The notes beneath the pieces are model-generated. The model was not told the origin of the DNA. It was given only the letters and a program-made list of their open reading frames with translations, and did not search any database. 28,746 nucleotides of DNA. Origin: a virus. The stretch covers positions 1 through 28,746 of IMG/VR virus record IMGVR_UViG_3300044742_000412, one strand, 5' to 3'. A program made the translations under genes and the position numbers. This document shows positions 1,405 through 14,594 of the stretch, piece by piece (the first letter of the stretch is position 1; every line of letters begins with the position of its first letter).

Positions 1405-1574
1405 CCCCCCGGCAGGTACAGCGCATCGTCGCTCGGGACCGCTCAGAATCTGAGGATTGTGAGCGCTTGACCCCGGGCTGCTCGATCAACCACACGGCCG
1501 AGGCCAGCCTCAACCAGGACCAGGCCGAGGCACTTGGCTTGGACACCCGCTTCGATGGGTGTGAGACCTGGTAG
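1401..1574 (+). CDS. Small hypothetical protein (57 aa)
   Basis: ATG at 1401 overlaps the preceding stop. The product begins MTPRQVQRIVARDRSESEDC; its basic N-terminal helix gives way to an acidic region with three cysteines spread through the chain. No domain is recognised. The stop at 1572-1574 is followed after 10 bases by the first 40-nt structured element. Tight coupling to the upstream gene is the main support. Confidence 0.55.
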   Translation: MTPRQVQRIVARDRSESEDCERLTPGCSINHTAEASLNQDQAEALGLDTRFDGCETW

Positions 1575-1584
1575 TTCGATTGAC

Positions 1585-1624
1585 GCCTGACCAGCAGGCA
1601 TCCGGGTGCAAGCCCCGGACAGGC
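1585..1624 (+). ncRNA. 40-nt T-loop element, copy A (structured intercistronic RNA)
   Basis: The order is: 5-base outer strand GCCTG (1585-1589), 11-base linker ACCAGCAGGCA, 6-bp stem TCCGGG/CCCGGA closing the 7-base loop TGCAAGC, then CAGGC (1620-1624) pairing with the outer strand. Copies B and C have exactly the same segment lengths. The loop resembles a tRNA T-loop and the stacked outer stem resembles an acceptor stem, so the whole looks like a tRNA minihelix without D and anticodon arms. It sits between a stop codon and the RBS of the next gene. A role in RNA processing or translation is inferred; no known family is recognised. Confidence 0.65.
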
Positions 1625-1664
1625 ACCAGCATCATCCAGGTGCTTGAGCAAGGAGATTGACCAC

Positions 1665-1895
1665 ATGACAGCCGAGTTCATTCACAGCGCCCGCGAGGAC
1701 AGCGTCGAGCTCGTCCTGGTCCGGTACCAGAAGGGCCTTTGGGCCTTCTGCTTCCACGAGGACCCGGCATTCGACTACGCAGTTGACCCCACCGGCTACA
1801 CCTGCACCGGCATCTGGGACCCTCACGGCCCCTACGCCCACTACCGGGTCCCCGCCGAGCTCTTCGAGCAGGTCACCCAGCACCCGTTCCCCTGA
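1665..1895 (+). CDS. Hypothetical protein (76 aa)
   Basis: ATG at 1665 has a clear Shine-Dalgarno (AAGGAG, 9 bases upstream), which decides against a longer frame starting with TTG at 1644. The product MTAEFIHSAREDSVELVLVR continues with aromatic-rich strands (KGLWAFCFHEDPAFDYAVDP) and is probably a small beta-rich domain. No family is recognised. It lies between structured elements A and B and would be translated from its own RBS. Confidence 0.7.
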   Translation: MTAEFIHSAREDSVELVLVRYQKGLWAFCFHEDPAFDYAVDPTGYTCTGIWDPHGPYAHYRVPAELFEQVTQHPFP

Positions 1896-1906
1896 CACCG
1901 ATTGCC

Positions 1907-1946
1907 GCCCCACCAGCAGGCACCCAGGCGCGAGCCCTGGGAGGGC
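1907..1946 (+). ncRNA. 40-nt T-loop element, copy B
   Basis: Same geometry as copies A and C: GCCCC (1907-1911), linker ACCAGCAGGCA, 6-bp stem CCCAGG/CCTGGG around loop CGCGAGC, then AGGGC (1942-1946). The outer stem changes together on both sides (GCCT/AGGC in A and C, GCCC/GGGC here), and all six stem pairs hold although the bases differ. One outer pair, C-A at the junction, is lost. A separate 6-bp hairpin (TCCGCC/GGCGGA, 1949-1965) follows just before the next RBS. The conserved linker is identical to copy A. Confidence 0.65.
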
Positions 1947-1982
1947 ACTCCGCCACCCAGGCGGATGACAAGGAGAATTGAC

Positions 1983-2207
1983 ATGACAACCATGTTCACG
2001 TTCGCCCTCGAGTACCCGGTGCCCTCGGCACCAGATGACAGCGATGTCTGGTACGAGGAGATCGACGTTTGGGCCGACAGCCGCGAGGCAGCCCTGACCG
2101 AGGTCACCCGGCAGGCCCAAGAGGACTACGAGCCCGGCTACCGTCGGATCATCGAACTCCCGGCGGGCGGATCGGGCGGCTTCGTCCAGGTCTGGAGCCT
2201 CAAGTGA
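1983..2207 (+). CDS. Hypothetical protein (74 aa)
   Basis: ATG at 1983 with AAGGAG 8 bases upstream. The product starts MTTMFTFALEYPVPSAPDDS, continues with an acidic strand-rich part (DVWYEEIDVWADSREAALTE) and ends with a Gly-rich turn and a strand (GGSGGFVQVWSLK). It may be a small alpha/beta domain. No family is recognised. The stop overlaps the next GTG start (GTGA). Confidence 0.7.
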   Translation: MTTMFTFALEYPVPSAPDDSDVWYEEIDVWADSREAALTEVTRQAQEDYEPGYRRIIELPAGGSGGFVQVWSLK

Positions 2208-2503
2208 CCGTCAACGAGCTCAAGGCAGCCCTCCAGGCAGCCCTCGACCGGGGCCTCCCAGGCTCCACCACGGTCGTCTTCGGCGACCACCCGGACCTCG
2301 ATTGGGCCGTCGTCGAGGTCCAGGGCGACCCGTCCGATGGCACGGAGGACTACGACATGTGGTTCACCCTCGGGGGCAGCGAGCCCGCCGACGCCCGCTT
2401 CACCGAGGGGGGCATGAGCCCCGAGTGGTACCTTGGCAGGGAGTCCGTCGTCGAGCAAGTTGCCAAGGAAGGGGGCTACACCAACGCCTGGCCCTCCAAG
2501 TGA
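2204..2503 (+). CDS. Hypothetical protein (99 aa)
   Basis: GTG at 2204 overlaps the previous stop, and the product begins MTVNELKAALQAALDRGLPG. The helix followed by a strand with acidic residues (TTVVFGDHPDLDWAVVEVQG) recalls small phage proteins of the form MTVxELxxxL, which have no assigned function. The frame is open further upstream, but that part overlaps the previous gene. The stop at 2501-2503 is followed after 8 bases by structured element C. Confidence 0.65.
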   Translation: MTVNELKAALQAALDRGLPGSTTVVFGDHPDLDWAVVEVQGDPSDGTEDYDMWFTLGGSEPADARFTEGGMSPEWYLGRESVVEQVAKEGGYTNAWPSK

Positions 2504-2511
2504 CTCAAGGC

Positions 2512-2551
2512 GCCTGACCGGCAGGCATCGAGGTTCGAGCCCTCGACAGGC
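2512..2551 (+). ncRNA. 40-nt T-loop element, copy C
   Basis: GCCTG (2512-2516), linker ACCGGCAGGCA, 6-bp stem TCGAGG/CCTCGA with loop TTCGAGC, then CAGGC (2547-2551). The loop matches the T-loop consensus of tRNA (TTCRANY) exactly. The linker differs from A and B at one base. No complete tRNA can be folded here because D-arm and anticodon-arm sequences are absent. It lies between a stop codon and the RBS of the gene at 2577. Confidence 0.65.
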
Positions 2552-2576: not shown

Positions 2577-2873
2577 ATGACACCAGCAGCAGCAGTGCTG
2601 ACCGGGCTCGCCGAAGAGGTGGCCCGAGCCGAGAAGAGCCTCACCGAGGGCCCGCTGTACTGGGCCCGCAGCAGGGTCGAGAGCGTCACCCGGAGCCTCG
2701 CCGCAGGCGAGTCGATGAACAGCCTGGGCGAGCTCCAGGCAACCGGCCCCGCCTTCGACGCCGCCGTCGCCAGACTCGAGCAGGCAGCCAACGCCTTCGG
2801 CGCCGCCCTCAGGGCCCTCTCGGGCGAGGTGATGGCCGCCTCGGAGAGCGATTGGCTGGTGGTGATCAAATGA
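2577..2873 (+). CDS. Helical hypothetical protein (98 aa)
   Basis: ATG at 2577 follows a moderate Shine-Dalgarno (AAAGG, 9 bases upstream). The Ala- and Glu-rich product (MTPAAAVLTGLAEEVARAEK and AVARLEQAANAFGAALRALS) is predicted to be almost all helix, with heptad-like spacing that suggests a coiled coil or helical bundle. No family is recognised. The longer frame from 2433 would run through structured element C and is not chosen. The stop overlaps the next start (ATGA). Confidence 0.7.
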   Translation: MTPAAAVLTGLAEEVARAEKSLTEGPLYWARSRVESVTRSLAAGESMNSLGELQATGPAFDAAVARLEQAANAFGAALRALSGEVMAASESDWLVVIK

Positions 2874-3760: not shown

Positions 3761-4178
3761 TCACACTCACGTCCGAACTCTCGGCTTCGATTGCCATCAA
3801 CTGGGCCCGTAACACTCCCGGTGCTCGGTCCCGCACTTCGGCAGGCAGATCCAACGCCTCGAGAGTTGCCAAGAGCACACGCGCCACAAGCTCCGCTCTG
3901 CGCTCCTCAACGCGCACCACTCGCTCCTCCAGGCCCAATCTCACAGCCGTCTCCGACGCCTTCCGCAGTGCCTCACGCTCCGACCTGTACAGCCTCAACC
4001 ACGGCGCCCAATCGTCCAACAAGCTCTCGTCCGTCGGTGCACCCGCCACCTTTGTCCCAAGCCAAGCAACGTGCCCCGCAGCCCTCCTCACCTCCTCCAA
4101 CAGCGCCATGAACGGGTTGATCCCTCGCTCCGCTCCATACCTCCGGGCCTCGTCCTTTGCCATTTCCACGTTACTCAT
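3738..4178 (-). CDS. terS: Terminase small subunit
   Basis: Binds packaging sites and loads the large terminase. The 146-aa product has the organisation of actinophage small terminases: an N-terminal segment GINPFMALLEEVRRAAGHVA, then WLGTKVAG, a central DDWAPWLRLYRSEREALRKA, and ERRAELVARVLLATLEALDL near the C-terminus. This is recognised from family pattern, not from a search. ATG at 4178 is chosen for its strong Shine-Dalgarno GGGAGG (4186-4191, 7 bases away) and its ATGA overlap with the upstream small ORF. The large terminase lies 3.2 kb further along the same strand, split off by the inverted island. Confidence 0.75.
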   Translation of the reverse strand: MSNVEMAKDEARRYGAERGINPFMALLEEVRRAAGHVAWLGTKVAGAPTDESLLDDWAPWLRLYRSEREALRKASETAVRLGLEERVVRVEERRAELVARVLLATLEALDLPAEVRDRAPGVLRAQLMAIEAESSDVSVINPPGGG

Positions 4179-4282
4179 TGTACAACCTCCCTGCCACACT
4201 TTCTGTGGCACACAAACAAACCCCATCTACACGCGAAGAGGGGACTACCAGAAACATTGCTCTGCCTCACTTTCTCAGGCAT
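4175..4282 (-). CDS. Small Cys-rich, zinc-finger-like protein (35 aa) upstream of terS
   Basis: ATG at 4282 has a strong Shine-Dalgarno (GGAGGG, 4287-4292, 4 bases away), and its TGA overlaps the terS ATG, the same coupling as elsewhere in this genome. The product MPEKVRQSNVSGSPLFACRW ends GLFVCHRKCGREVVQ. The CHRKCGREV tail resembles the second half of small actinobacterial zinc-binding proteins (YCSxxCRxR), but the first CxxC pair is reduced to one Cys, so the finger may be degenerate. An overlapping 28-codon frame (ATG at 4257) also exists and is less well supported. Two similar hairpins lie within this gene. Confidence 0.5.
   Translation of the reverse strand: MPEKVRQSNVSGSPLFACRWGLFVCHRKCGREVVQ
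4192..4210 (-). repeat. Hairpin H1 with GAAAG loop, next to the terS RBS
   Basis: As minus-strand RNA, UGCCACA pairs perfectly with UGUGGCA around a GAAAG loop. The stem ends directly against the GGGAGG Shine-Dalgarno of the small terminase. A second hairpin with the same loop and the same outer TGCC/GGCA lies at 4263-4281. It could control terS translation. Confidence 0.55.
4263..4281 (-). repeat. Hairpin H2 with GAAAG loop, at the start of the Cys-rich ORF
   Basis: On the minus strand TGCCTGA and TGAGGCA flank GAAAG: six pairs with one internal G-G mismatch. The fifth pair is T-A here and A-T in H1, a compensating change that argues for a kept structure. The stem includes two bases of the ATG at 4282, so folding would hide that start codon. 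Confidence 0.5.
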
Positions 4283-4294
4283 TCAACCCTCCAC

Positions 4295-4304
4295 ATTGTA
4301 CAAT
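4295..4304 (-). promoter_or_regulatory. Palindromic -10-like site upstream of the terS unit
   Basis: ATTGTACAAT gives TACAAT on both strands. On the minus strand it lies 16 bases before the ATG at 4282 and could start a terS transcript, with +1 near 4292 at the Shine-Dalgarno. The -35 position reads ATCAAT, unlike TGGACA. It overlaps nothing but the short gap after the primase stop. Confidence 0.4.
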
Positions 4305-6832: not shown

Positions 6833-6861
6833 TGGACGGGCGCGCTAATTCATAGTACAAT
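6833..6861 (+). promoter_or_regulatory. Rightward leaderless promoter (TGGACG-17-TACAAT)
   Basis: TGGACG at 6833-6838, 17-base spacer, TACAAT at 6856-6861, then 7 bases to the ATG at 6869. The upstream ACAAATGC matches other promoters in the set. It starts the long rightward arm. Confidence 0.8.
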
Positions 6862-7278: not shown

Positions 7279-7291
7279 GATATGGTACAAT
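7263..7291 (+). promoter_or_regulatory. Leaderless promoter (TGGACA-17-TACAAT)
   Basis: TGGACA 7263-7268, 17 bases, TACAAT 7286-7291, then 6 bases to the ATG at 7298. It lies inside the 3' end of the DUF2493 remnant. Confidence 0.85.
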
Positions 7292-9079: not shown

Positions 9080-9108
9080 TGGACACCTGCCTTCATTCAT
9101 AGTACAAT
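9080..9108 (+). promoter_or_regulatory. Leaderless promoter (TGGACA-17-TACAAT)
   Basis: TGGACA 9080-9085, 17 bases, TACAAT 9103-9108, then 6 bases to the ATG at 9115. Confidence 0.85.
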
Positions 9109-10184: not shown

Positions 10185-10390
10185 CTCGCCTCGCCTACAA
10201 CGTCGGCCTCACCGTGCCCGAGCTCGACCTCCTCATCAAACTCATCGACGATGAGGAGGACCTCACCGACGAGGAGGAGGCCGAACTCGCCGGCATCCGT
10301 CGCAAGATGCGCACCAAACGCAAGCAACTTCGGCAACCGCGAAAGAAACGCTGGACATCCGCACGAGATCATAGTACAATGACCTCATGA
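10181..10390 (+). CDS. Small charged protein (69 aa)
   Basis: GTG at 10181 overlaps the previous stop. The product has an acidic helical half (DLLIKLIDDEEDLTDEEEAE) and a basic half (RRKMRTKRKQLRQPRKKRW), suggesting nucleic acid binding. Its last codons cover the next promoter, and its stop overlaps the next ATG. The functional end may therefore be constrained by the promoter. No family is recognised. Confidence 0.55.
   Translation: MTRLAYNVGLTVPELDLLIKLIDDEEDLTDEEEAELAGIRRKMRTKRKQLRQPRKKRWTSARDHSTMTS
10352..10380 (+). promoter_or_regulatory. Leaderless promoter (TGGACA-17-TACAAT)
   Basis: TGGACA 10352-10357, 17 bases, TACAAT 10375-10380, then 6 bases to the ATG at 10387. It lies inside the end of the preceding gene. 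Confidence 0.85.
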
Positions 10391-14565: not shown

Positions 14566-14594
14566 TGGACAAACTTCATGAGATATGGTACAAT
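14566..14594 (+). promoter_or_regulatory. Leaderless promoter (TGGACA-17-TACAAT)
   Basis: TGGACA 14566-14571, 17 bases, TACAAT 14589-14594, then 6 bases to the ATG at 14601. It could drive the nucleotide and polymerase genes as far as 19917. Confidence 0.85.

Follow-up and report, generated by a model that had tools for sequence, protein, structure and literature searches.

What is the 40-nt sequence that recurs three times between the small genes of a viral genome fragment, and why does it stand where it stands? The fragment, a 28.7-kb stretch of viral DNA (28,746 nt; IMG/VR record IMGVR_UViG_3300044742_000412) that was analyzed at its full length and is referred to here as the window, carries the copies on the plus strand at positions 1585-1624, 1907-1946, and 2512-2551. 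An initial annotation, made from the letters of the DNA alone, had described them as T-loop minihelices without D and anticodon arms. Their positions, the sequences quoted for them and their identical segment lengths (5+11+6+7+6+5 nt in each copy) were all confirmed, and an exhaustive, unfiltered covariance-model search of the window returned just these three copies, the next-best site having an E-value of 0.011.

Three Copies of a 40-nt Element in an Array of Small Genes

In copy 1 (1585..1624, plus strand; model E-value 1.9e-14), an outer stem (GCCTG/CAGGC, 1585-1589/1620-1624) and an inner stem (TCCGGG/CCCGGA, 1601-1606/1614-1619) are connected on the 5' side by a linker (ACCAGCAGGCA, 1590-1600), and the inner stem is capped by the T-loop TGCAAGC (1607-1613). 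With linker and loop positions denoted by l and t, respectively, copy 1 offers the tertiary pairs l2:l8 (C-G), l9:t7 (G-C), and l10:t6 (C-G); at l4:t2 it carries a variant A:G combination, a type also present in copy 2. Copy 2 (1907..1946, plus strand; E-value 6.3e-11) possesses the outer stem GCCCC/AGGGC (1907-1911/1942-1946) with one C-A mismatch at its inner end, every other stem position being paired; its linker occupies positions 1912-1922, its inner stem (CCCAGG/CCTGGG) positions 1923-1928/1936-1941, and its T-loop (CGCGAGC) positions 1929-1935. Copy 3 (2512..2551, plus strand; E-value 3.2e-17) combines the outer stem GCCTG/CAGGC (2512-2516/2547-2551), the linker ACCGGCAGGCA (2517-2527) and the inner stem TCGAGG/CCTCGA (2528-2533/2541-2546) with a T-loop, TTCGAGC (2534-2540), that corresponds to the tRNA consensus. 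Over 48 nt, copy 3 is 94% identical to an intergenic site of the Streptomyces phage Saftant. The near-identical linker that had been highlighted in the initial annotation is indeed found in the three copies of the window; across phages, however, the linker varies in a covarying manner, so that its near-identity is partly a small-sample effect.

The same arrangement recurs among the same-strand small genes of the window: each element begins 8-11 nt after a stop codon and is followed by a start codon at a distance of 25-40 nt. The TAG stop codon of the upstream gene (1572..1574) lies 10 nt before copy 1, a TGA (1893-1895) 11 nt before copy 2 and another TGA (2501-2503) 8 nt before copy 3. Each copy is followed by the dinucleotide AC (1625..1626, 1947-1948, and 2552-2553), a 3' flank resembling R73-C74 of tRNA, and hairpins are located 3' of copy 1 (GCATC-ATCCA-GGTGC, 1629..1643) and 3' of copy 2 (CCGCC-ACCCA-GGCGG, 1950..1964). 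A gene of 76 amino acids (1665..1895) starts 40 nt past copy 1, one of 74 amino acids (1983..2207) starts 36 nt past copy 2 and overlaps by 4 nt with the next gene (2204-2503; 99 amino acids), and one of 98 amino acids (2577..2873) starts 25 nt past copy 3; the three genes that directly follow an element have no PHROG match. All of these features are on the plus strand.

Covariation of the Helices and of the Linker-Loop Contacts

All 11 helix pairs hold across the element set and ten of them covary; the sole other pair, the equivalent of G53:C61 in tRNA, is invariant (71/71). In the seed set, which was itself filtered for pairing, 99.6% of the cells are paired, and the covariation score is 0.82 as compared with 0.22 for shuffled sets (0/500). 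When sites were collected without this filter by the letters of linker and loop, both stems paired at 48 of 133 viral sites versus none of 119 bacterial ones. A strict descriptor comprising all tertiary pairs gave 307 matches in 2.22 Mb of viral loci, which had partly been fetched by the element's own letters but whose annotated phages had not been chosen by copy number; no match was obtained when these loci were shuffled by a first-order Markov model, nor in bacterial loci (0.86 Mb) or in the phages R4 and phiC31. The copies in the window are not random, and it is nearly certain that the RNA structure is real; covariation of the 11 helix pairs, unmatched in 500 shuffles, bears out the minihelix of the initial annotation. 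Since a pseudoknot is needed for the fold, it remained invisible when single sequences were folded (z -0.1 to -1.4) and emerged from covariation alone. An alternative in which the outer 5' strand pairs locally with a linker CAGGC, conceivable for elements of the GCCTG type, was rejected, since it is impossible for GGGTG, GCGTG, and other outer strands.

Repeats of this kind might also act at the level of the DNA, as a repressor stoperator, a recombination site between gene cassettes or a mobile repeat. R4-like phages do possess intergenic stoperators (PMC10276819), and the neighboring genes are shuffled among phages, but the compensatory changes in the element preserve RNA pairing, including G-U and tertiary pairs, and not DNA sequence. 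Moreover, R4, the source of the described repressor-stoperator system, is devoid of the element, and the paired sequences vary freely, so that we rejected an identity with R4-like stoperators and regard any DNA-level explanation as scarcely credible.

Mutual information was calculated from 220 unique cores that had been selected without using the covarying tertiary positions (l2:l8, l9:t7, l10:t6, l4:t2). The l2:l8 combination ranks among the helix pairs, with 216 of the 220 cores being Watson-Crick and all four pair types represented; l9:t7 and l10:t6 covary as well (pairing in 212 and 218 cores, respectively), and l4:t2 undergoes a concerted switch between G:U (206 cores) and A:G (10 cores). 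At l5:t3, two positions set by the descriptor, the pair is always G:C. Translated into tRNA numbering, l4:t2 is G18:U55 and l5:t3 is G19:C56, the contacts that build the tRNA elbow (PMC4810234). The equivalents of G53:C61, U55/C56, R57, A58, and G19 are invariant or almost so, in agreement with the published tRNA elbow (PMC4810234).

The composite helix measures 11 bp in 208 of 227 cases. From this fixed helix length and the covariation between linker and loop, we conclude that the linker is a D-loop reduced to its essentials and that the 40 nt together form a tRNA elbow. The initial annotation had recorded the 11-nt linker as it is but had missed that it takes the place of a D-loop and pairs with the T-loop. 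As judged from covariation, a small pseudoknot closes this minimal version of the tRNA elbow: the linker folds back as a minimal D-loop in which G4 and G5 stand for G18 and G19, l2:l8 closes a 5-nt loop, l9 and l10 pair with T-loop residues 60 and 59, and the 11-bp composite helix capped by the T-loop imitates the elbow and the acceptor end of a tRNA.

Distribution Among Phages and Their Hosts

A BLAST search with copy 3 retrieved 113 Streptomyces phage records and, among the matches listed, the sites were unannotated and intergenic throughout. Other queries led to Mycobacterium phages (Cborch11, Papyrus, Predator, Send513, and others) and to Riemerella phages; Microbacterium phages are represented by BLAST matches alone, with no structural check. 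The covariance-model search for homologs that had been proposed along with the initial annotation was productive: a model built from 46 sequences gave 194 matches at E <=1 in 1.1 Mb and 24 more in further phages, and the homologs revealed additional covarying pairs. In phiC31 and R4, the model found no element. Typical Streptomyces phages carry 8-10 copies, all within the leftward small-gene array, and the 30 IMG/VR records contain 1 to 15 copies each. The many IMG/VR contigs with the element span 30% to 71% GC; the contigs with 30-40% GC have A/T-rich 5' UTRs and, together with the Riemerella phages, indicate that phages of Bacteroidota are carriers.

Bacterial genomes rarely contain the element (two of about 600 searched). 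It is present in 1 of 199 Streptomyces genomes, with four copies within 5 kb that we take for a prophage, and one weak match was found in 1 of 98 genomes of a Mycolicibacterium sample; none was detected among the candidates scored from 296 Bacteroidota genomes. These genus- and phylum-wide scans scored a part of the first-look candidates and do not thereby prove absence from the hosts.

The Riemerella phage CRP19 has no protein in common with any other phage compared (threshold 1e-5), and by the same threshold the Mycobacterium phage Papyrus and the Streptomyces phage Saftant share none. Since carriers from different phyla lack a common protein, the simplest assumption is that the element interacts with a universal host factor. 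These data also bear on the idea that the element is the binding site of a phage-encoded regulator, for example an antiterminator or a translational repressor, with multiple sites per operon. While 8-15 copies per genome, all of them in early-type small-gene arrays, would suit such a regulator, the lack of a shared protein and the freely changing helix sequences speak against it, and we consider it very unlikely.

Placement at Gene Boundaries and Flanking Hairpins

Of the 60 elements in eight annotated phage loci, 57 lie entirely between genes, with a median distance of 12 nt from the stop codon (quartiles 8-28) and of 44.5 nt to the next start codon (quartiles 38-51). Placement between a stop codon and the following ribosome-binding site, as initially noted for the window, is strongly supported. 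Among the intergenic gaps measuring 60 nt or more in the small-gene arrays of these loci, 57 contain an element and 19 do not. Elements are always found on the coding strand, and in none of 47 loci with at least two strict elements are the strands mixed. Behind homologous genes, the element is kept about as often (29 both, 16 one) as in front of them (20 both, 20 one), from which we conclude that it marks boundaries and not one particular neighbor.

A downstream hairpin (stem of 5 bp or more) that starts no more than 8 nt away accompanies 62% of the elements versus 14% of shuffles, and an upstream hairpin ending within 4 nt is present at 42% versus 10%; windows further from the element show no hairpin excess. 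The stop codon is contained in 87 of 113 upstream hairpins, and such a hairpin occurs at 70% of the gene ends that are followed by an element as compared with 33% of other gene ends (p 0.00016). Among the sequences listed, AT-rich phages have no flanking hairpins, which identifies these hairpins as accessories.

Two further explanations for the conserved intergenic sequence were rejected. The copies are not conserved protein-coding sequence, the possibility against which the initial annotation had wished its proposal to be checked: apart from their intergenic position, a frame-0 stop is present in 140 of 267 cores, and variation follows the pairs. Nor are they intrinsic terminators consisting of a hairpin and a U run, since the 3' flank reads RC without a T run and a same-strand gene starts 25-50 nt downstream. 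The early region of phiC31 has terminators; a relationship to these was dismissed, given that phiC31 lacks the element.

The fixed position of the element between stop and start would also fit a tRNA mimic that is recognized by the ribosome or by some other host factor with affinity for the elbow and that controls termination, re-initiation, or RNA modification. The elbow is recognized by many host factors (PMC4810234); candidates would be the L1 stalk region of the 50S subunit, TruB, the CCA-adding enzyme, SmpB, and Rsr. Against this stand a spacing to the following start codon that varies (from 25 to 71 nt, and about 22 nt for AT-rich phages), the existence of gene-free tandem copies, and the lack of both an anticodon and CCA, so that we regard such a mimic as quite unlikely.

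The 3' Flank and Proposed Cleavage by Host RNase P

Outside the fold, two bases are conserved, R73 (207 of 214 unique elements; 97%) and C74 (205 of 214; 96%). G1 is present in 184 and C75 in 15 of the 214 unique elements, and only three of them encode CCA. At position -1, A prevails and U is rare; a depletion of -1:73 pairing was discarded as evidence because 22 such pairs were observed where 20.6 are expected from composition. We compared this flank with the tRNA genes of one Streptomyces and one Bacteroidota genome (L322-L381), whose 3' ends were set by the T-arm register, Rfam match ends being noisy. C74 was found in 26 of 26 genes and CCA in three; in the ARAGORN register, the corresponding numbers were 63 of 63 and 10. 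The element consequently obeys the rule of host tRNA genes, in that C74 is encoded and CCA is mostly absent in both.

RNase P recognizes the tRNA elbow by stacking and the 3' RCCA by pairing (PMC11143913). C74 pairs with bacterial RNase P RNA, and a pseudoknot substrate in which it was replaced (to G) is no longer cleaved (PMC12710915; PMC11143913). RNase P is known to process the C4 and M3 RNAs of phages as well as polycistronic mRNA (PMC11143913). With a probability of roughly one half, the best explanation of the element is an intercistronic punctuation mark that is cut by the host RNase P. In this scheme, the element would be a cis-acting RNA directly behind the stop codon in the polycistronic early mRNA; after docking on the elbow by stacking and on R73-C74 by base pairing, RNase P would cleave on the 5' side of the helix, and RNase Z might then make a second cut on its 3' side. 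A long mRNA would thereby be converted into independently stable gene units, whose new ends the flanking hairpins may protect in GC-rich phages. The conserved R73-C74 flank, being equal to that of host tRNA genes, supports RNase P indirectly, whereas transcription of the element, its recognition and cleavage by RNase P, and an effect on stability or expression are steps that we infer. The initial annotation had offered an RNase P cut, a protein-binding site, or operon punctuation as possible functions; punctuation is strongly supported with respect to boundary placement and structure, while the function itself is a prediction.

Several observations do not fit RNase P well. The composite helix of 11 bp is 1 bp shorter than that of tRNA (12 bp); the RCC interaction would be incomplete, because C75 is rare; and U at -1, which is favored by E. 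coli RNase P RNA in a pseudoknot study (PMC12710915), is uncommon in the elements. Upstream hairpins, ending 0-4 nt before the element, would fill the normally single-stranded leader, and some phages contain tandem elements without intervening genes. Since the close relative R4 lacks the element, it is dispensable for this type of phage.

A passive, very stable knotted fold could stop exoribonucleases or insulate cistrons without any dedicated cutting enzyme. The compact fold with its linker-loop pseudoknot would suit such a roadblock, as would the fact that many copies begin about 6-16 nt past the stop codon, near the edge of a terminating ribosome, with a further hairpin to follow. However, the strict T-loop letters and the unpaired R73-C74 exceed the needs of a roadblock, and linker length and helix length are fixed; we deem it unlikely. 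A more far-reaching version of the RNase P scheme is tentative and somewhat doubtful: unrelated phages of at least two bacterial phyla might use minimal elbow mimics that host RNase P and RNase Z excise as mini-tRNAs of about 41 nt; a single transcript would thereby be split into many messages with protected ends, and the host tRNA machinery might be burdened with decoys.

Relationship to Known RNAs

The element resembles tRNA in its T-loop (UUCRANY), the invariant G53:C61, the equivalents of G18:U55 and G19:C56, and an R73-C74 flank like that of host tRNA genes; it differs in lacking an anticodon arm, a D stem, and CCA, in its coaxial helix (11 versus 12 bp), and in the pairing of residues 59-60 with the linker. 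It is not a tRNA itself, as there is no cloverleaf, ARAGORN finds no tRNA in the window, and the Rfam tRNA model has no match. Non-tRNA RNAs that rebuild the elbow are the 3' tRNA-like structures of TYMV and TMV, mascRNA, the tRNA-like domain of tmRNA and the tRNA-like module of bacterial Y RNA, and several RNAs of this kind are RNase P substrates. These modules are single, larger and mostly terminal, whereas the element comprises 40 nt, is internal to operons, and occurs 2-15 times per phage genome.

As phage RNAs processed by host RNase P, the C4 antisense RNA (P1/P7; Rfam c4-2) and the M3 RNA are comparable (PMC11143913), but their fold differs, and the Rfam c4 models miss the element. The punctuation of mitochondrial and other tRNA-containing transcripts and the RNase P cuts in the his operon likewise employ a tRNA-like unit to divide cistrons; in those cases, a genuine tRNA or a fortuitous fold of the mRNA serves as the marker, while the element appears to be a dedicated mimic with no other apparent use. 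The start-associated sequences of cluster K mycobacteriophages and the stoperators of L5 and R4 are also short, one-orientation repeats before many small phage genes; according to their literature descriptions, they are DNA or RNA motifs that are conserved in sequence and lack this fold. The cluster K sequences are defined by specific 13-bp and extended inverted-repeat motifs at gene starts, and the analogy to them that was raised in the initial annotation is one of genomic distribution only.

Rfam 15 (4227 families) has no match in the window at the gathering threshold, none over the elements at E<=10, none over the L254 elements at E<=1, and only unrelated c4-2 and tRNA matches in 13 other loci. 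In the open-access literature we found no description of the element, an earlier one in subscription papers, which lay outside the search, being possible; a paper on related Streptomyces phages mentions intergenic stoperators and no RNA (PMC10276819). The apparent novelty concerns the RNA class, the principle of the tRNA elbow being already known. This class is compact, has a tertiary structure proven by covariation and no Rfam family, and is distributed among phages of Actinobacteria and Bacteroidota. If RNase P cuts it, viral mRNA in bacteria would have a dedicated system of tRNA-like punctuation, and the element would be the smallest natural elbow mimic known to us as well as a ready-made tool to split synthetic operons. 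It also makes the extent to which bacterial RNase P acts on mRNA testable, a question that a 2024 review places at an early stage.

Additional Observations in Phage Loci and in the Window

R4 (L250) has many genes in common with element-bearing Streptomyces phages, yet no copy of the element, and is a natural comparator. Tandem arrays of at least four elements spaced about 105-175 nt apart are present in L086 (2461-2984, minus strand) and L077 (10009-11363, minus strand); in the L086 array, no gene-length ORF is evident between the elements, the spacers being composed of GG-rich pentamers of degenerate sequence (for instance GGCAT/GGCAA/GGCAC). In Riemerella-type phages (L254 33504-33687, L111 2390-2576, and L262 at about 9437, all minus strand), a similar stretch of roughly 95 non-coding nucleotides (CACAGGATATAGTGATG...GTCAGAAATCTGGTAGGTA) is bordered by elements, of which L254 and L111 have two around it; in L254, no Rfam match was obtained. 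In L267 (900-981 and 1078-1117, minus strand), a T-loop element precedes an Rfam c4-2 RNA by about 96 nt; the phage C4 RNA, to which the latter is related, is among the known substrates of RNase P.

Positions 960-1180 of the window form a non-coding, GC-rich leader for which a long hairpin is predicted (-92.7 kcal/mol), its stability not exceeding that of shuffles (z -0.68). A palindromic motif, TTGTACAAT / TAGTACAAT, has 19 matches on both strands of the window (about 10 sites) versus 1.4 expected, with sites at 945-953, 1190-1199, 4177-4186, 4295-4304, 6852-6861, 7282-7291, 9099-9108, 10371-10380, and 14585-14594. This motif is probably an operator or promoter element distinct from the RNA elements.
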